Source: Roseibium litorale
GTDB taxonomy: Bacteria; Pseudomonadota; Alphaproteobacteria; Rhizobiales; Stappiaceae
DNA: 64,000 nt
Reading direction: 5' to 3'
NCBI RefSeq assembly: GCF_014842915.1
Contig: NZ_JACYXI010000006.1
Span: forward strand, 1-64,000
The notes below the pieces were generated by a model that worked only from the letters and a program-made list of their open reading frames with translations, ran no database searches and had not been told where the DNA came from. Below are positions 43,531-52,442 of the stretch, one piece after another (position 1 is the stretch's first letter; each line of letters opens with the position of its first letter). Position numbers and translations under genes: made by a program.

Positions 43531-43550
43531 AAATGAATGATCGTTCATTT
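43531..43550 (+). promoter_or_regulatory. Palindromic operator for the TetR regulator
   Basis: A 20-base inverted repeat with 10-base arms (AAATGAATGA / TCGTTCATTT) and a single mismatch lies 23 bases upstream of the tetR start, in the 148-base space between ppk2 and tetR. The size and dyad suit a TetR dimer. It probably mediates autoregulation and control of the liu operon. ppk2 could also be affected. Confidence 0.6.
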
Positions 43551-43572
43551 ATTTTTTCAGATGGAGGACAGC

Positions 43573-44256
43573 ATGGATCATTCCGGCAAGCGGCAGGCAG
43601 GCACTCTGGGAGGAGCAGCAGGCAAGCCATCAGCATCTGATGACACGCGCAGCACCAAGGGCGGGCAAACCGCTGCCCGGGTGTGCAAGGCTGCGCTGCA
43701 TCTTTTTGCCCGGCACGGCTATGCAGCCGTTTCCATGCGCCAGATCGCGTCTGAGGTCGGCGTTCAACCCGGCGCCCTCTACAATCATTTCGCCACCAAG
43801 CAGGATATCCTCAAGGCCTTGATGCTGGAGCACATGGGTGCGCTTCTTCAGGCTTGGGAAGCGTGCAGAGGCACGGTGCCTGAGGGCACAGACCTGCTGG
43901 AGGTCTTTGTCCGGTTCCACATCCGCTATCATCTCAGCCGTTCTGAAGAGGTGTTCATCTCCTACATGGAGCTGCGCAATCTTGAGCCGGAGAACTTCGC
44001 TGCGGTCGAGCGTCTACGGCAAATCTATGAGGCCATTCTCACAGGCATTCTGGAAGACGGCATGAGCCAGGGCCGTTACCGCATTGAGGAACCGCGTGTC
44101 GCGACCCGCGCCATCATCGCCATGCTGACAGGCATACCCGCCTGGTACCGGGAAACCGGCAGCCTGACCGCCGGCCGCATTGAAACAATTTATCTGGACA
44201 TGGTGCGCGGCAGCCTTGGCGCCGCGCCCGCCTTCACCGCAGGGGAGAGCGGCTGA
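43573..44256 (+). CDS. TetR-family regulator of the liu operon
   Basis: A 227-residue repressor. The N-terminal helix-turn-helix [20 protein letters not shown] followed by [17 protein letters not shown] is canonical TetR; the C-terminal ligand domain shows the pattern of TetR_C regulators of acyl-CoA metabolism. The stop is one base before mccB, so it is the first gene of the leucine/isovalerate degradation operon and the likely CoA-thioester sensor. ATG 43573 follows GGAGG; the earlier ATG at 43537 falls inside the operator and is rejected. Confidence 0.92.
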
Positions 44257-44257
44257 C

Positions 44258-45865
44258 ATGACAATCCTGAAATCCAATCTTTCGGCCCGCAGCGAAGGCT
44301 TTGCAGCCAACCGGAGTGCCCACGAAGCGGCCATGTCGCAAGTGCGCGACGCGGCCCAAAAGGCCTTTGACGGCGGCGGCGGGACCGCCCGCGAACGTCA
44401 CACATCCCGCGGCAAGATCCTGCCGCGGGAACGCGTCTCCCGGCTGCTTGATCCCGGCTCACCCTTCCTGGAAGTCGGCACCCTGGCCGCGCACGGCCTC
44501 TATGGCGATGCCGCCCCGTCGGCGGGCATCATCACCGGCATTGGCCGGGTCGAAGGCCAGGAAGTGATGGTCATTGCCAATGACGCGACGGTCAAGGGCG
44601 GCACCTACTATCCGATGACCGTGAAGAAGCATCTGCGCGCGCAGGAAATCGCTGCAGAAAACAACCTGCCTTGCGTCTATCTGGTGGATTCGGGCGGCGC
44701 CAACCTGCCGAATCAGGACGAGGTCTTTCCCGACCGGGATCACTTCGGCCGCATCTTCTTCAACCAGGCCAACATGTCGGCCAAGGGCATTGCCCAGATT
44801 GCCGTCGTCATGGGCTCCTGCACGGCGGGCGGCGCCTATGTGCCTGCCATGTCGGACGAAACGATCATCGTCCGCAATCAGGGCACCATCTTCCTGGCAG
44901 GCCCCCCGCTGGTGAAGGCGGCAACCGGCGAGGAGGTGAGCGCGGAGGACTTGGGCGGCGGCGATGTGCATACGCGCCTTTCCGGCGTGGCCGACCATCT
45001 GGCCCGGGACGACGCCCATGCGCTTGCCCTTGCCCGCCGCTCCGTCGCCAGCCTCAACCGCACCAAGCGTTCCCAGGTCGCGCTGCAGACACCGGAAGAT
45101 CCGCTTTATGATCCGGACGAGATCCTCGGCGTCGTTCCGGCGGATCTGCGCACGCCTTATGACATCCGCGAGGTGATCGCGCGCGTGGTGGACGGCTCGC
45201 GGTTTGACGAGTTCAAGGCCCGCTACGGCACCACACTTGTCTGCGGCTTTGCCCATATTCACGGCATGCCCGTCGGCATCATCGCCAACAATGGCGTGCT
45301 CTTTTCCGAAAGCGCCGTGAAGGGCGCCCATTTCGTCGAGCTCTGCTCCCAGCGCAAGGTACCGCTGGTGTTCCTGCAGAACATCACCGGCTTCATGGTC
45401 GGGCGCAAATATGAAAGCGGCGGCATCGCCAAGGACGGCGCGAAGCTGGTGACGGCTGTCGCCACCACCTCCGTTCCGAAGATCACCATGCTGGTCGGTG
45501 GTTCCTTTGGCGCGGGCAACTACGGCATGTGCGGCCGGGCCTTCAACCCGCGCTTCCTCTGGACCTGGCCGAACTCCCGCATTTCGGTCATGGGCGGCGA
45601 GCAGGCAGCTGGCGTTCTTGCCACCGTCCGGCGCGACGGCATCGAACGCAAGGGCGGCAGCTGGTCTGCGGAAGAAGAAAAGGCCTTCAAGCAGCCGGTC
45701 ATCGACCAGTTCGAGGAACAGGGCCATCCGCTCTACGCCTCCGCCCGCCTGTGGGACGACGGCATCGTGGACCCGCGCAAGACCCGCGACATTCTGGGCC
45801 TATCCCTCTCCGCCGCCCTCAACGCCCCCATCGAAGACACGCGATTCGGCCTGTTCCGGATGTGA
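44258..45865 (+). CDS. mccB: Methylcrotonyl-CoA carboxylase beta (carboxyltransferase) subunit
   Basis: A 535-residue carboxyltransferase that moves carboxyl from biotin to 3-methylcrotonyl-CoA in leucine breakdown (LiuB). It has [20 protein letters not shown], typical of MCC beta, the acyl-CoA/biotin pocket [17 protein letters not shown], and [20 protein letters not shown]. The C-terminal end is [15 protein letters not shown]. The last 42 bases are partly repeated at 46423-46464. ATG 44258 has a GGGGAG site. The alpha subunit, normally adjacent, begins 1318 bases downstream. Confidence 0.96.
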
Positions 45866-45868
45866 GCC

Positions 45869-46297
45869 ATGACCCAGACACTTGATGACCTGAAAGCAAA
45901 ATACCCCGGCGCAGAGAGCTTTAACTTCGGAGACAGCGCAGAGTTGTCCGGGGAACTGATTGCCCTCGTGCGCAGCGGCAAAAAGACCGGCACCTGCGGC
46001 GCCTTGCGCGACTTCACCGAGGGAGGAGACGCCCTCCCCGTCGTAGGACGAAAGGACATCGCTCTGGATTGGGACGGAAAGCCCGCTCTGGTGATTGAAA
46101 CCCTTTCGGTCACCATCTGCCGCTTCTGCGATGTCGATACCAAATTTGCCCTGAGCGAAGGCGAGAACGACGATCTGGCGGGATGGCAGCGCGACCACCA
46201 GGCCTACTTTGAGCGCAATGGCGGCTTTTCACCGGAAATGGAACTGGTCTGTGAGCGGTTCCGCCTCGTGGAGGATCTCGCCGGGGAGGCACAGTGA
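45869..46297 (+). CDS. ASCH-domain protein, first cargo between mccB and mccA
   Basis: A 142-residue protein with an ASCH fold: [20 protein letters not shown] is the family's RNA/nucleotide-binding entry, and [20 protein letters not shown] plus a C-terminal [14 protein letters not shown] follow. ASCH proteins (YqfB/YhfF-like) include amidohydrolases of acetylated nucleosides and RNA-binding regulators. It has no known part in leucine breakdown. It starts 4 bases after the mccB stop and ends in TGATG, overlapping the start of a truncated mccA copy, so it is co-translated with the operon. G+C and codon use match the host. Confidence 0.85.
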
Positions 46298-46464
46298 TGT
46301 TCAAGAAAATTCTCATTGCCAATCGCGGCGAAATTGCCTGCCGGGTGATCAAGACAGCCAGACGGCTCGGCATACGGACAGTTGCAGTCTATTCGGACGC
46401 GGATGCCGGAGCCATGTATGCGGCCTCGATTGAAGACACCCGCTTCGGCCCGTTCCGTATGTAA
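46297..46464 (+). pseudogene. Hybrid mccA 5'-end / mccB 3'-end remnant
   Basis: A 55-codon open frame made of the first 40 codons of mccA (46297-46419, ending DADAGAM) joined in frame to the last codons of mccB (46423-46464, [12 protein letters not shown] and stop). The mccA part matches 47184-47303 with six differences in 120 bases, all at third codon positions and silent. The mccB part differs from 45824-45865 at eight of 42 bases. The order (mccA start before mccB end) is the reverse of the operon and is the novel joint of a tandem duplication or allele merger. A functional peptide is unlikely but translation is possible. Confidence 0.85.
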
Positions 46465-46475
46465 GGAGAAAAGCC

Positions 46476-47184
46476 GTGGATTTTCTTGACAGCATTAAGA
46501 ATAAGATCCCAGCGATAGGGTTTATTTCCCTATTGCTCTCGGCGACTTACCACGCAGGCCTCCTGAATGCCGCAGCAAGTATAGATATAATATCATCGCT
46601 ATCATATCAGGACATTATAATAGCATCTTTATACATATTTCCAATACTTTTATCTTCATTTTACGCAATATCTGCAATTAAAGACATTATATATCTTGAG
46701 GGGAAATTCGATAAGTGGTGGAAGTATGGAATATTATTCTTAATATTCACACTTGGGCTTGCTTCATTTTATTTGGAGGGAAATCAGCCAAGTTCATTTA
46801 CTTGGATATTGTTGATATTCTCTGCGTCACCACTAATTTATAAAATAATAAAGAAACTTAATAAAAAATCTTGAAAAAGAGCAAATTGCGATAATAACAA
46901 TTATTCTAACAGTATTCATAGTCGCATACAGCTCTGGATACGGCGCATATCACAAGTCACAGTGCCAAGATCTGACATATATAAGTACAGATAAATGCAA
47001 AGATTGCATTCTTGTAAAAATATATTCAAATATCATTATTCTCAAACAAAAAGACTCCAGATCAATTTATGTCGAAAAGAACGAGAACAATTACGAACTG
47101 CGGATCGATGCCGAAGAAAGATTAAAAGCAACCCAATCGTCATATTGCAATCCAATTAAGACTTGGCTGGAGGGAAGAAAGTGA
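46476..47184 (+). pseudogene. A+T-rich membrane-protein gene split by frameshift, second cargo
   Basis: The first frame (GTG 46476 to TGA 46874, 132 residues) encodes about four transmembrane helices and follows AAGGAG. It stops just after a run of six A (46863-46868). In another frame (one base skipped, open from 46852 to TGA 47184) the sequence continues as ...LEKEQIAIITIILTVFIVAY, a fifth helix, and a soluble tail with four Cys (SQCQDL, DKCKDCILV, SSYCNP); that part has no ATG/GTG/TTG start of its own. Removing one A gives a single 235-residue protein. The DNA is strikingly A+T-rich with ATA-rich codon use, unlike all neighbours, so it is foreign. It ends overlapping mccA in TGATG. Family not recognised. 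Confidence 0.7.
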
Positions 47185-49178
47185 TGTTCAAGAAAATCCT
47201 CATTGCCAATCGCGGCGAAATTGCCTGCCGGGTGATCAAGACCGCCAGACGGCTCGGCATCCGGACGGTTGCGGTCTATTCGGACGCGGATGCCGGGGCC
47301 ATGCATGTGGCGCTCGCCGACGAGGCTTACCGGATCGGTCCCGCACCCGTGGCGGACAGCTATCTGCGCATTGATGCCATCATCGGCGCCTGCAAGAAGA
47401 GCGGTGCGGAAGCGGTTCACCCGGGCTATGGTTTCCTGTCGGAAAACCCAGGCTTCGTTGACGCGCTGGATGCGGCGGGCATCGCCTTCATCGGTCCAAG
47501 AGCCCGTTCCATCCGGGCCATGGGCCTGAAGGACGCGGCCAAGGCCCTGATGGTGGAGGCAGGCGTACCGGTGGTGCCGGGCTATCACGGCGAATCCCAG
47601 GATCCGGAGTTTCTGAAGGCGCAGGCGGACGAGATCGGCTACCCGGTCCTGATCAAGGCCCGCGCGGGCGGCGGCGGCAAGGGCATGCGCCGGGTGGACG
47701 ATCCGAAGGACTTCCTGTCCGCTCTCGCAGGCGCCCAGCGCGAGGGGCAGGCGAGCTTTGGCGACCCCCGTGTCCTGATCGAGAAATATCTGACCAAGCC
47801 GCGCCATATCGAAATTCAGGTCTTCGGCGACAGCCACGGCAACGCGGTGCATCTGTTCGAGCGGGACTGCTCGCTCCAGCGGCGGCACCAGAAGGTGATC
47901 GAGGAAGCCCCGGCCCCCGGCATGCCGGAAGAGATGCGCCGGGCGATGGGCGAGGCCGCCGTAAAGGCCGCCAAGGCCATCGACTATTCCGGCGCAGGCA
48001 CCATCGAGTTCATTGCCGATGTGTCAGAGGGCCTGAAGGCGGACCGGTTCTATTTCATGGAAATGAACACCCGGCTCCAGGTCGAGCATCCGGTGACAGA
48101 GATGATCACCGGCGAGGATCTGGTGGAGTGGCAGCTGCGCGTTGCCTCTGGCGAACCTCTGCCCAAGCGCCAGGACGAGCTCACTTTCTCGGGCTGGGCC
48201 TTCGAGGCCCGGCTTTATGCGGAAGATGCGCCCAAGGGCTTCCTGCCTGCCATCGGCACGCTCACCCACCTGCATCTGCCGGATACACTCGCCCGCATCG
48301 ACAGCGGTGTGCGCAGCGGCGATGCCATCACGCCTTACTATGATCCGATGATCGCCAAGATCATCGTTCATGGCCCAACCCGTGAGGCAGCTCTCGGCAA
48401 ACTGCTGACGACACTTGAAGACACCCAGGTCGCGGGCTGTGTGACCAATGCCGGCTTTCTTGCCAGCCTCTGCCGCCATGAAGGCTTTGCCAAAGGGGAT
48501 GTGGATACGGGCCTGATCGACCGGGATCTGCAAAGCCTCATCAGCGAGCCGGAAATACCTGAAGATGCAATCGCCCTTGCGGCTCTCGCAGCTCTGGGCC
48601 TTACCAAGGAACCGGCGGAAAGCGATCCATGGGATCGGCTGAAGGGCTGGCGCATGTGGAGCGCGTCGCGCCAGTTCGCCCTGCTCGACATTTCCGGCGA
48701 GCGCCGGGACGTGGAAGTGCATGCCCTCGGGCACAAAGCCTTCTCGGTTCTGACGAATGGCAGTCCCCAGACCTACGAAATCGTCTCGGTCAGCGGCTCC
48801 ACGATCACCTTCGAGCGGAACGGGGTCCGGCAGACCGCAGCCCTGGCGGAAGAGACGGGATCGATCACCATCTTCATGGGTGGCCACGCCTATCGTGTCG
48901 GTCTTGCTGATCACCTGTCTGACAACGAAGAAACCGGCAGTGCCAGCGACCAGATCATCGCGCCCATGCCGGGTCTGGTGAAGGTGCTCAGCGCCAAACC
49001 GGGCGACACGGTCTCTGCCGGTCAGGCCCTCGTGGTTCTGGAAGCCATGAAAATGGAGCACACGCTGAAAGCCCCGCGGGATGGCGTTGTCGCCAACGTT
49101 CTGGCAGCAGAAGGCGAACAAGTGCAGGACGGAGCCATTCTTCTGGCTCTTGAGGAGGAGGCATCGGATGCTGCCTGA
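47184..49178 (+). CDS. mccA: Methylcrotonyl-CoA carboxylase alpha (biotin carboxylase/BCCP) subunit
   Basis: A 664-residue biotin-dependent subunit (LiuD) carboxylating its own biotin with bicarbonate and ATP. The biotin carboxylase domain has [20 protein letters not shown], the ATP-grasp GGGGKGMRRVD and FMEMNTRLQVEHPVTE. A middle linker domain and the C-terminal biotinyl domain with the biotin-lysine in VLEAMKMEHTLKAP follow. ATG 47184 is chosen: it starts [11 protein letters not shown] and overlaps the TGA of the preceding cargo in TGATG. A TTG seven codons upstream is not needed. The first 40 codons recur at 46297. Confidence 0.97.
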   Translation: MFKKILIANRGEIACRVIKTARRLGIRTVAVYSDADAGAMHVALADEAYRIGPAPVADSYLRIDAIIGACKKSGAEAVHPGYGFLSENPGFVDALDAAGIAFIGPRARSIRAMGLKDAAKALMVEAGVPVVPGYHGESQDPEFLKAQADEIGYPVLIKARAGGGGKGMRRVDDPKDFLSALAGAQREGQASFGDPRVLIEKYLTKPRHIEIQVFGDSHGNAVHLFERDCSLQRRHQKVIEEAPAPGMPEEMRRAMGEAAVKAAKAIDYSGAGTIEFIADVSEGLKADRFYFMEMNTRLQVEHPVTEMITGEDLVEWQLRVASGEPLPKRQDELTFSGWAFEARLYAEDAPKGFLPAIGTLTHLHLPDTLARIDSGVRSGDAITPYYDPMIAKIIVHGPTREAALGKLLTTLEDTQVAGCVTNAGFLASLCRHEGFAKGDVDTGLIDRDLQSLISEPEIPEDAIALAALAALGLTKEPAESDPWDRLKGWRMWSASRQFALLDISGERRDVEVHALGHKAFSVLTNGSPQTYEIVSVSGSTITFERNGVRQTAALAEETGSITIFMGGHAYRVGLADHLSDNEETGSASDQIIAPMPGLVKVLSAKPGDTVSAGQALVVLEAMKMEHTLKAPRDGVVANVLAAEGEQVQDGAILLALEEEASDAA

Positions 49179-50793
49179 GGCCTCCAGCTATGACGAGCTG
49201 ATCAGCCGTTTCACCTGGACCATTCCGGACACTTTCAACATCGGCGCAGCCATCTGCGATGAATGGGCTGCGAAAGAGCCGGACCGGGAAGCGCTGGTCT
49301 ATGTTCAGGAGGACGGGGACACCCGGTCCTACAGCTATGGTGACCTGAAGCGTCTGTCGAACCAGCTCGCCTGCCTGCTTGCGAGCGAACATGTCCAGCC
49401 TGGCGACCGGGTTGCCGTGCTCCTGCCCCAGATGCCGGAGACTGCGATTGCCCATATCGCTGCCCTGAAGCTCGGCGCGATCACCATTCCTCTCTTCACG
49501 CTCTTTGGCGAGGAAGCACTCAGCTACCGGCTTGCCAATTCCGGCGCAAAGTTGGTGGTGACGGATGCAGCCGGAGCCGGAAAGATCGCCGCGATCCGCC
49601 ATGAGCTGCCTGACCTGAAGACCGTCTTCTGCACGGATGGTGACCTGCACGGTGCCCGGGATCTCGCCACCGCCATGGCAAATCAGCCGGAACGCTTCGC
49701 ACCTCTCGCCACCCGTCCGGAAGACCCGGCCATCATCATCTACACCTCCGGCACCACAGGCCAGCCCAAGGGTGCCCTGCACGGTCACCGGGTGCTGCTC
49801 GGCCATTTGCCGGGTGTTGAAATGAGCCACGACTTTCTGGGCCAGCCCGGCGACCGGATCTGGACCCCAGCCGACTGGGCGTGGATCGGTGGGCTTCTCG
49901 ACGTGTTGATGCCCGCGCTTTACCTTGGCGTGCCTGTCGTTGCCTGCCGGTTCAAGAAATTTACTCCGGAAGCAGCCTTCGCCCTCATCGAAGCGCAAAA
50001 GGTCCGCAACGCTTTCCTGCCCCCAACGGCTCTCAAGCTGATGCGGCAGGTCGAAGCGCCGGAAACCCGGTGGACGCTCAACATGCGCTCCATCGCTTCG
50101 GGTGGCGAGACGCTCGGAACCGAACTGATCGAATGGGGACGCAAGACCTTCGGGCTGACCATCAACGAATTCTATGGCCAGACCGAATGCAACATGATTG
50201 TCTCCAGCTGCTCGGCCATCATGGAGGCACGCCCCGGCATCATGGGCAGACCTGCCGCCGGACACCGGGTCGATGTGGTCGATGCCAACGGCAACACTGT
50301 TGCAGATCATGAGCTGGGCAACATTGCCGTCAAAAGCCCCGACCCGGTCATGTTCCTTGGCTACTGGAACAATCCGGAGGCCACGGCCGCCAAGTTCGCG
50401 GGTGGCTGGATGCTGACCGGCGATACCGGCGAGCGGGACGAGCAAGGCTGGATCCGTTTTGTTGGCCGGGACGATGATGTCATCACCTCGTCCGGCTACC
50501 GCATCGGACCGGGGGAAATCGAAGACTGCCTGATCCGCCATCCCGCCGTCGCTCTGGCCGGCGTGGTGGGAAAACCGGACGCCCAGCGCACCGAGATCGT
50601 GAAGGCCTACATCGTCCTCAAACAGGGCGTCGAACCGAATGATAAGCTGGCAAAGGAAATAGCAGAGTTCGTCAAGACCCGCCTTGCCGCCCACGAATAT
50701 CCGCGGGAAGTCGCCTTTGTGGACGCCCTGCCCATGACCACCACGGGCAAGGTGATCCGCCGTGAATTGCGCGCCCGCGCTGCCGATGAATAG
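49168..50793 (+). CDS. AMP-dependent acyl-CoA synthetase/ligase
   Basis: A 541-residue adenylate-forming ligase activating a carboxylic acid as its CoA thioester. It has the P-loop IIYTSGTTGQPKGALHGH, motif A5 INEFYGQTECNMIVSS, motif A8 MLTGDTGERDEQGWIRFVGR followed by DDDVITSSGYRIGPGEIED, and the catalytic Lys in TTTGKVIRREL. In this operon the likely substrate is a branched or short-chain acid such as isovalerate, methylcrotonate or acetoacetate; this is inference. ATG 49168 follows GAGGAGGAGG and overlaps the end of mccA by 11 bases, so it is translationally coupled. Confidence 0.9.
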   Translation: MLPEASSYDELISRFTWTIPDTFNIGAAICDEWAAKEPDREALVYVQEDGDTRSYSYGDLKRLSNQLACLLASEHVQPGDRVAVLLPQMPETAIAHIAALKLGAITIPLFTLFGEEALSYRLANSGAKLVVTDAAGAGKIAAIRHELPDLKTVFCTDGDLHGARDLATAMANQPERFAPLATRPEDPAIIIYTSGTTGQPKGALHGHRVLLGHLPGVEMSHDFLGQPGDRIWTPADWAWIGGLLDVLMPALYLGVPVVACRFKKFTPEAAFALIEAQKVRNAFLPPTALKLMRQVEAPETRWTLNMRSIASGGETLGTELIEWGRKTFGLTINEFYGQTECNMIVSSCSAIMEARPGIMGRPAAGHRVDVVDANGNTVADHELGNIAVKSPDPVMFLGYWNNPEATAAKFAGGWMLTGDTGERDEQGWIRFVGRDDDVITSSGYRIGPGEIEDCLIRHPAVALAGVVGKPDAQRTEIVKAYIVLKQGVEPNDKLAKEIAEFVKTRLAAHEYPREVAFVDALPMTTTGKVIRRELRARAADE

Positions 50794-50802
50794 GAAAGCA
50801 GG

Positions 50803-51663
50803 ATGAGCGACTTCGTCACCATCTTCGAAATGGGTCCGCGCGACGGGCTGCAGAACGAAAAGACCTTCGTGCCGACCGCTGACAAGATCCGGCTGGTCGA
50901 CATGCTGACCGAATGCGGCTTCCGCAAGATCGAGGTTACCAGCTTCGTCAGCCCGAAATGGGTGCCCCAGATGGCCGATGCCACTGAGGTGATGGAAGGC
51001 ATCTACCGCCATCCTGCGGTCTGCTACACCGCCCTGACCCCGAACGCCACCGGCTATGCCGCTGCCAAGCGCGTGTCCGCCGACGAGATCGCCGTCTTCG
51101 GCTCCGCCTCGGAAGGCTTCTCAAAGAAGAACATCAATTGCTCCGTGGCGGAGAGTATCGAGCGGTTCAAGCCAGTGATCGAGAAGGCCCACAAGGACCA
51201 TATCCCGGTGCGCGGCTATATCTCCTGCGTGACCGACTGTCCCTACGATGGCCCCACCCCGCCGGAGGCCGTTGCCAAGGTGGCTAAGATCCTGTTCGAC
51301 CTGGGCTGCTATGAAATCTCCCTCGGCGATACCATTGGTGCGGGTACACCCGAGACCATAGGACGGATGCTGGACGCGGTGCTGGCCGAGGTTCCGGCAA
51401 AGCATGTTGCCGGGCATTATCACGACACCAAGGGTCAGGCGCTTGCCAACATCGAAGTGAGCCTCGACAAGGGCCTGCGCACGTTCGATGCCGCCATCGG
51501 CGGTCTGGGTGGCTGCCCCTATGCTCCCGGCGCGAAGGGGAATGTGGCGACGGAAGCGGTCGCCCGTCTGCTGACTGCCAAGGGATATGAGACCGGCCTG
51601 AACATGGAGAAGCTTGCCGCTGCCGCCAGCTTCGCCTTGTCGCTTAGGAGCGCTGACGCATGA
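50803..51663 (+). CDS. mvaB: Hydroxymethylglutaryl-CoA lyase
   Basis: A 286-residue TIM-barrel lyase (LiuE) that splits HMG-CoA into acetyl-CoA and acetoacetate, the last step of leucine degradation. The N-terminal EMGPRDGLQNEKTFVPT, the metal ligands in AGHYHDTKGQALANIEVSL, and the signature GLGGCPYAPGAKGNVATE with the catalytic Cys are intact. Nine bases separate it from the ligase gene, and its stop overlaps the next start in ATGA. Confidence 0.96.
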   Translation: MSDFVTIFEMGPRDGLQNEKTFVPTADKIRLVDMLTECGFRKIEVTSFVSPKWVPQMADATEVMEGIYRHPAVCYTALTPNATGYAAAKRVSADEIAVFGSASEGFSKKNINCSVAESIERFKPVIEKAHKDHIPVRGYISCVTDCPYDGPTPPEAVAKVAKILFDLGCYEISLGDTIGAGTPETIGRMLDAVLAEVPAKHVAGHYHDTKGQALANIEVSLDKGLRTFDAAIGGLGGCPYAPGAKGNVATEAVARLLTAKGYETGLNMEKLAAAASFALSLRSADA

Positions 51664-52442
51664 CCTACGAGACGATTTCCATTGCCACGGATGCGCGCGG
51701 CGTTGCGACCCTCACTCTTAACCGTCCTGACAAGCACAATTCCCTGTCCGCACGGATGATCGATGAGCTGACCCATGCTGCCGCGGAGCTGGGCAGCGAT
51801 CCGGCCGTGCGCGTGGTGGTTCTAACCGGTGCAGGCGCCAGCTTCTGCGCGGGCGGTGACCTTGGCTGGATGCGGGAACAGTTTGATGCGGACCGTCAGA
51901 CCCGCATGGTGGAGGCACAGAAGCTGGCGCATATGCTGCGCGACCTGAACGAGCTGCCGAAGCCTCTGATTGGCCGGGTCCAGGGGCAGGCCTTTGGCGG
52001 CGGCATCGGCATGATGAGCGTCTGCGACACGGTGATTGCCGTTGAGACGGCCAAGTTCGGCCTGACGGAAACCCGACTCGGGCTGATCCCCGCCACCATC
52101 AGCCCCTATGTCCTTGCCCGCATGGGCGAAGGCAAGGCGCGGCGCGTGTTCATGTCCGCAAGGCTCTTCGGAGCAGAAGAAGCGCGGGACCTGGACCTCG
52201 TGGCAAGGGTCGTCTCCGAAGCAGATCTGGATGCAGCGGTGGAAGCCGAAGTGAAGCCCTATCTCTCCGCTGCCCCCGCCGCAGTGGCGGCCTCCAAGGC
52301 TCTGGCCAGATCGCTTGGCCCGGCGATTTCGGTCGATGTGATTGAGGACACGATACGCCGTCTTGCAGATACCTGGGAGACCCCGGAAGCGCAGGAAGGC
52401 ATTCAGGCCTTCTTTGAGAAACGCAAGCCTTCCTGGGCTTGA
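51660..52442 (+). CDS. liuC: Enoyl-CoA hydratase, probably methylglutaconyl-CoA hydratase
   Basis: A 260-residue crotonase-fold enzyme. The oxyanion-hole segments are GAGASFCAGGDLGWM and GQAFGGGIGMMSVCDTVIA, followed by FGLTETRLGLIPATISPYVL, which carries the catalytic glutamates. With MCC and HMG-CoA lyase alongside it most likely hydrates 3-methylglutaconyl-CoA to HMG-CoA (LiuC). It is coupled to mvaB by an ATGA overlap and closes the operon. No isovaleryl-CoA dehydrogenase (liuA) is in this window. Confidence 0.9.
   Translation: MTYETISIATDARGVATLTLNRPDKHNSLSARMIDELTHAAAELGSDPAVRVVVLTGAGASFCAGGDLGWMREQFDADRQTRMVEAQKLAHMLRDLNELPKPLIGRVQGQAFGGGIGMMSVCDTVIAVETAKFGLTETRLGLIPATISPYVLARMGEGKARRVFMSARLFGAEEARDLDLVARVVSEADLDAAVEAEVKPYLSAAPAAVAASKALARSLGPAISVDVIEDTIRRLADTWETPEAQEGIQAFFEKRKPSWA

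Follow-up and report, generated by a model that had tools for sequence, protein, structure and literature searches.

Variable Cargo and Merge Scars at the mccB-mccA Junction of a Leucine Operon in Roseibium and Its Relatives

Described Systems with Variable Cargo

Integron cassette arrays carry variable cargo at a fixed place behind a resident promoter. The junction between mccB and mccA, which encode the two subunits of methylcrotonyl-CoA carboxylase, is similar in that variable cargo occupies a fixed place where a resident promoter may serve it, but it differs in that its scars lack an attachment repeat of fixed length and the scanned cargo includes no recombinase.

Small variable segments and dimorphic loci within a conserved backbone have been described from aligned strains of three species (PMC2884548). 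These loci resemble the mcc slot in that one site holds different short contents with no known mobile element involved, and the proposed cause, homology-assisted illegitimate recombination, is the one deduced here for the mcc slot. The mcc slot differs in that it is a single junction within an operon of core catabolism, that the comparison runs between species of a genus, and that it bears merge scars. In Vibrio cholerae, addition of type VI secretion effector-immunity modules and arrays of orphan immunity genes are reported (PMC5361080). There, as may also be the case at the mcc slot, homologous replacement is accompanied by rarer, homology-facilitated illegitimate addition that stacks modules. 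The V. cholerae cargo consists of effector-immunity genes, whereas no such pairing is recognised at the mcc slot, which is flanked by genes for metabolic enzymes. An experimental system has been used to follow homology-facilitated illegitimate recombination (PMC3240628), a process with one homologous and one illegitimate end, as the mcc joints require; here the process is deduced from scars.

Literature searches for methylcrotonyl-CoA carboxylase with macrodomain or with operon and ASCH, and for insertions between conserved genes, returned no description of an mccB-mccA slot; the match for macrodomain with methylcrotonyl-CoA carboxylase concerns pathogen sirtuins. Variable segments and recombination of this kind are already described; what is new is the in-operon setting with repeated merge scars. 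The slot displays readable intermediates of a foreign gene joining a conserved operon: empty, carrying one cargo, merged, and pruned. Because its flanks are highly conserved enzyme genes, it could be tracked in strain collections to measure how often genes are gained, swapped, and stacked when no mobile element is at work. We consider it probable that a core leucine operon here contains an accessory-gene slot at the mccB-mccA junction, with no recombinase in sight, that occasionally gains cargo by homology-anchored illegitimate addition.

The Leucine Operon and Its Slot in Roseibium litorale

The window is the stretch of 64,000 nucleotides that begins contig NZ_JACYXI010000006.1 of Roseibium litorale. 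Its leucine operon lies on the plus strand throughout, in the order TetR-family regulator, mccB, slot, mccA, acyl-CoA synthetase, HMG-CoA lyase, and enoyl-CoA hydratase. The regulator gene (43537..44256; Pfam TetR_N, E = 7.8e-17; TetR_C_24, E = 6.4e-26) is immediately 5' of mccB, with 1 nt from its end to the mccB start. The carboxyltransferase gene mccB (44258..45865; Carboxyl_trans, E = 8.8e-154) forms the left border of the slot with its 3' end, and the biotin carboxylase gene mccA (47184..49178, assigned by Pfam) forms the right border. Downstream are an AMP-binding acyl-CoA synthetase gene (49171..50793, assigned by Pfam) that starts within the end of mccA with an 8-nt overlap, an HMG-CoA lyase gene (50803..51663; Pfam HMGL-like, NF004283 above cut-off), and an enoyl-CoA hydratase family gene (51660..52442; ECH_1, NF005675 above cut-off).

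With mccB ending at 45865 and mccA starting at 47184, the slot (45866-47183) has the 1318 bases given by an earlier, sequence-only reading of this DNA. The order proposed there, mccB, ASCH gene, mccA-mccB hybrid, membrane gene, mccA, also stands, but in this assembly the membrane gene does not form a single uninterrupted ORF. The first cargo is an ASCH-domain gene of 142 aa (45869..46297, plus strand; Pfam PF04266, E = 1.7e-17). It is followed by a scar, found by local alignment and likewise on the plus strand, whose left half copies the mccA 5' end (46297..46428) and whose right half copies the mccB 3' end including the stop codon (46423..46464). A hybrid ORF of 55 residues (46297..46464, plus strand) spans the joint in a single open frame.

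The second cargo is AT-rich, with a G+C content of 0.30-0.36 in 200-base windows from 46500 to 47199 versus 0.585-0.72 in mccB windows. It is split into two overlapping plus-strand frames that meet at a six-A run (46855-46875). The first is a membrane-like ORF of 132 aa with a GTG start (46476..46874); the second, shifted at the six-A run, has 109 codons (46855..47184) and no ATG, GTG, or TTG start ahead of it. The frame break may be a mutation, a sequencing or assembly error, or a site of frameshifting. The two frames were searched separately, and the first has no match in Pfam, PADLOC, or PHROGs and no plasmid match. The gene is present in 1 of 87 family genomes, the window's own, and an allele with the membrane gene between mccB and mccA in the absence of ASCH was not found among the genomes examined, one per species.

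The cargo may be expressed from the catabolic promoter and read together with the operon, as its orientation along the operon suggests. Seed matches in the slots of the same genus and of another genus, g28, are all on the operon strand, the seeds themselves being plus-strand ORFs. Promoter-like patterns number 6 versus 1.8 expected, 4 of them on the minus strand within the AT-rich cargo, and terminator-like patterns number 7 versus 4.3 expected, 1 of them on the plus strand within the AT-rich cargo. These patterns neither demonstrate nor rule out that the cargo rides on the operon promoter. The junction may tolerate cargo because mccA would have its own ribosome-binding site there.

Slot Content across Relatives

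An mccB match at the limit used is present in 83 of 87 family genomes (the window's included), and of the remaining 82 genomes, 79 supplied intervals, for a total of 80 loci because one genome contributed two. A further 80 named loci provided a measurable gap in 71 cases. The detailed set holds 47 genomes, one per species: 41 of the same genus (window included), 5 of g28, and 1 of g29. The tree counts omit G001, for which no rpoB match is listed, and therefore cover 46 genomes (40 of the same genus and 6 from two others).

The proposal that the mccB-mccA gap is a variable slot is borne out by comparison at the species level, in which content varies while the flanking genes mccB and mccA are constant. 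The 46 genomes display 12 kinds of content, and 39 of the slots are occupied. The most frequent contents are ASCH with a macrodomain gene (9), ASCH (8), a macrodomain gene (7), and the empty slot (7), followed by ASCH-macrodomain-unknown (3), hydrolase-ASCH-macrodomain (3), hydrolase with a macrodomain remnant (3), and ASCH-hydrolase (2). The contents of the window, G003, G019, and G025 each occur in a single genome. On the rpoBC tree, at least 20 content changes are needed (at least 9 for ASCH alone, 6 for the macrodomain, and 5 for the hydrolase), and content differs in 5 of 16 sister pairs. The window's two-cargo layout is absent from the other 46 genomes of the detailed set, and its sister G022 has a macrodomain gene instead, so close relatives do not all carry the identical arrangement that a single old event would have left.

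Gap sizes, examined in 47 genomes, range from 10-11 bp in empty slots to 2267 bp, and exceed 200 bp in 38 of the 46 measured; G030, with Ns in its gap, is omitted from the measurement yet counted as ASCH-macrodomain in the content tally. The tight downstream junctions are nearly constant, at -8 to 7 for mccA-acs in 47 genomes and -4 to 7 for hmgL-ech in 46, and the acs-hmgL junction spans -4 to 271 in 47 genomes.

In G092 (L157), mccB is out of frame past approximately residue 449, which makes it a possible pseudogene or sequencing error, and its 25-bp gap is an artefact of this frameshift. A fusion of mccB with a macrodomain remnant was considered for this genome and rejected, because the frame is shifted and a macrodomain gene is present there; the content was relabelled as macrodomain. 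The earlier label gives 21 changes. The macrodomain remnants of G012, G011, and G021 (L128, L129, and L135) retain only the gene start and the last bases, and these last bases hold a ribosome-binding-like stretch ahead of mccA.

The Joint in the Window

The window contains a direct repeat of 132 nt at 94% identity (46293-46424 and 47180-47311). The mccA copy (gap positions 432-563; 46297-46428) has a local alignment score of 218 versus 22, the best of 40 gap shuffles, and the 40-nt mccB-tail copy (gap positions 558-597; 46423-46462) scores 45 versus 22, again the best of 40 gap shuffles. The joint fuses non-homologous sequences, an mccA head and an mccB tail. In the window the two alignments overlap by 6 nt, which may reflect microhomology.

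The sequence-only reading attributed the hybrid to a tandem merge of two interval versions through recombination in the conserved flanks. A merge is supported by mccB tails in the slots of three further genomes, but the proposed route falls short, because mccA 5' and mccB 3' sequences are not homologous and flank recombination alone cannot fuse them; one end must be illegitimate. One homologous and one illegitimate end fits the window joint, and the geometry of the pieces suggests that the other end may have been joined by homology. Incoming DNA with a second version of the interval would find a homology anchor in mccB or mccA and be joined illegitimately at its other end. The new cargo would thereby be set beside the resident cargo rather than replacing it, and the two would be separated by a short remnant of the mccB tail, accompanied in the window by an mccA head.

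The two mccA heads provide information on the source of the merged alleles. The scar copy is identical to the intact head at 120 of 128 positions, and at 7 of the 8 differing sites the sister G022 sides with the intact head. Most changes (7 of 8) are thus in the scar copy, as expected of a dead copy. Both heads are nearest to G022, with identities of 0.914 and 0.961 (next best 0.820 and 0.859), and so resemble alleles from a single lineage. The merge in the window would have joined one allele carrying ASCH to another carrying the AT-rich membrane gene, each with an mccA head from this local lineage, and the duplicated head would have been decaying since.

The same order of pieces would arise from plain tandem duplication of mccB 3' end, ASCH, and mccA 5' end, with the membrane gene then replacing the second ASCH, and the local origin of both mccA heads agrees with such a duplication. 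It requires an extra step, however, and the mccB tail in the scar scores higher against the mccB ends of G068 and G069 (64) than against its own (52), though over 40 nt only; we regard this history as distinctly unlikely. An assembly artefact might be suspected in a draft genome of 35 contigs whose membrane cargo is broken at a homopolymer. Given that 8 of 128 sites distinguish the two head copies and that mccB tails lie inside the slots of three other genomes, an artefact is extremely improbable.

Scars in Other Genomes

The three further genomes with copies of the mccB 3' end inside the slot are G003, G019, and G025. Their contents read unknown gene, mccB tail, hydrolase, ASCH, and macrodomain in G003; ASCH, macrodomain 5' remnant, mccB tail, hydrolase, and macrodomain in G019; and unknown gene, mccB tail, and macrodomain in G025. 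The G025 scar is identical over 34 nt to the junction of mccB end and macrodomain start in its sister G018, suggesting that the resident junction was retained and a new gene placed ahead of it.

In all four scars, the mccB tail is directly ahead of a cargo gene, which could indicate that small elements integrate site-specifically at the end of mccB (3'), the scar then being an attachment-site repeat. The scars do not share a fixed attachment repeat, however: their lengths are 23, 40, 85, and 86 nt, and their left partners vary among an mccA head, a macrodomain 5' part, and DNA without assignment. Furthermore, no recombinase was found among the representative cargo proteins scanned with Pfam, a scan confined to genes within the operon. 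Site-specific integration is accordingly highly improbable, and homology-anchored illegitimate addition is the reading we prefer for these scars.

Two non-alphaproteobacterial records, L056 and L067, have 35-nt matches to the mccA head inside the mcc gap. These are possibly further duplications or the result of a mis-set mccA start.

Exchange and Descent of the Cargo

The sequence-only reading also proposed that the gap is an exchangeable cargo slot, and one local replacement tract agrees with this proposal, whereas four of five other comparisons have no clear tract. The tract is in the close sisters G008 (ASCH-hydrolase) and G004 (ASCH). G008 resembles G004 throughout mccB and for ~320 nt into ASCH, is then like G028 at the ASCH 3' end, which also has the hydrolase, and returns to sister-like sequence within the first ~100 nt of mccA. 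The left edge is strong (9:3 versus 8:73 informative sites, p = 4.2e-6, best of six cuts) and the right edge weak (p = 0.0084, best of seven cuts). A cargo gene and its neighbouring sequence are thus like those of a third species, as in ordinary homologous replacement, with one strong edge. Either sister may be the recipient, because G004 and the distant G009, both with ASCH-only alleles, also have sites in common near the 3' end of ASCH (5:7 versus 5:81, p = 0.002). Flank scans of G017/G093, G025/G018, G035/G011, and G096/G030 found no clear replacement tract; the last 100 nt of mccB in G017 are slightly closer to G034 (91%) than to its sister (86%). Between G000 and G022, the first 100 nt of mccA are 98% identical versus 86-96% in the next eleven windows.

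The window ASCH is nearest to the slot ASCH of g28, with 82% protein identity, ~80% DNA identity, and support of 100/99. Because g28 is also the natural outgroup, this topology alone is nearly compatible with vertical descent. On the rpoBC tree, G009 and G027 are sisters to the pair that includes the window, yet their ASCH genes are placed elsewhere (94/86). The closeness of the ASCH sequences (z about 3) together with the placement of G009 and G027 suggests transfer.

Cargo identity correlates with rpoBC identity at r = 0.75 for ASCH (378 pairs), 0.76 for the macrodomain (253), and 0.96 for the hydrolase (36), as computed under the earlier label for G092, and the flanks correlate at 0.84 for mccB and 0.92 for mccA (1225 pairs). 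Cargo thus follows the species tree roughly as closely as mccB and mccA, and the pattern could largely be old presence with repeated loss. In its strongest form, an old block of ASCH, macrodomain, and hydrolase genes would have descended vertically with piecemeal loss and rare additions only, exchange being negligible. Such a history accords with the rpoBC correlation, with the macrodomain remnants of G011, G012, and G021, which resemble internal deletions, and with the slot macrodomains of the genus, which fall on one side of a branch (100/99). It does not account readily for gene orders that differ between hydrolase-ASCH-macrodomain, ASCH-hydrolase, and ASCH-scar-hydrolase-macrodomain, nor for the repeated changes of ASCH and hydrolase on the tree. 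Moreover, the scars record additions, the window ASCH is closer to another genus, and the membrane gene occurs in a single family genome. Loss from an old block is therefore an unlikely account of the slot as a whole. An accessory-gene slot with occasional addition remains our preferred reading, and exchange at it looks episodic.

Cargo Function and Mobility

The cargo is diverse (ASCH, macrodomain, alpha/beta hydrolases, and orphans), and no shared role was found. The macrodomain protein scores above the NCBI cut-off for O-acetyl-ADP-ribose deacetylase. Solved structures of ASCH relatives exist, without a stated function. A link of macrodomain and ASCH proteins to leucine catabolism via acyl-ADP-ribose is our speculation.

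Defence and phage cargo were considered and rejected. PADLOC returned 0 matches for five proteins, a set without the macrodomain, both hydrolases, and the orphan UNK107, and PHROGs returned weak matches only (E = 0.036 and above) for six proteins. The window's genome has three matches to TIGR02218, which we take to be a marker of gene-transfer-agent-like tails that prophages may carry too, and one match to the competence family PF03772, which also has matches in 10 of 14 control genomes. Neither the TIGR02218 nor the PF03772 matches demonstrate transfer.

Other Subunit Junctions and Wider Distribution

Two other operons were sampled as controls. The pccB-pccA gap ranges from 703 to 5082 bp across 20 same-genus genomes (L257-L276), and in 4 of 20 genomes, namely G018, G013, G020, and G033 (L279, L283, L287, and L289), sucC and sucD are separated by 347-545 bp of inserted DNA. 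Three of these inserts contain one long ORF each, and the fourth has two overlapping short ORFs. The test used for tail and head scars at mcc found them in 0 of 20 pccB-pccA gaps and 0 of 4 sucC-sucD inserts. Because these junctions vary too, subunit junctions here often contain additional DNA, and mcc is not necessarily exceptional. Relative to the two sampled operons, mcc is distinguished by high occupancy with tightly packed genes and by scars.

A broader and quite tentative reading, which we would not expect to hold in full, is that subunit junctions of core operons, in this genus at least, are standing integrase-free landing slots. Homology-anchored transfer, perhaps of genomic fragments in packaged form, could capture short genes there, stack them, and swap them, and the genes would come under the operon's expression at once; macrodomain and ASCH genes might recur at mcc by repairing acyl or ADP-ribose by-products of leucine breakdown.

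An ancient pairing of the macrodomain gene with mccB was considered and rejected. Among 142 genomes drawn evenly from the class, a listed macrodomain match is present in 34, mccB in 75, and both in 29, and in 0 of these 29 are the listed macrodomain and mccB matches within 10 kb, as judged from coordinates read by eye and within the limits of contig ends. The pair is therefore not a class-wide neighbourhood. ASCH has a match in 6 of the 142 class genomes, the window's own included. Placing all slot macrodomains (31 rows) in one clade versus 18 non-slot macrodomains gives a p-AU of 0.225.

In the 71 measurable named loci, the mcc gap has a macrodomain gene in 7 (Mesorhizobium, Pseudaminobacter, Paracoccus, and Aliiroseovarius) and ASCH in 3. 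By eye, a Rid-like ORF is present in Rhizobium mcc gaps, one of which was checked and scores 82.5 bits against TIGR00004, under the cut-off of 106.25. Also by eye, other named-locus gaps contain nuclease-like and oxygenase-like ORFs, and five non-Stappiaceae records have a crotonase-like ORF in the mcc gap. An oxygenase-like ORF, again recognised by eye, is open in the L071 slot and apparently decayed in that of L024. The L039 slot of Paracoccus is another stacked case, holding ASCH, an ankyrin-like ORF (by eye), and a macrodomain gene.
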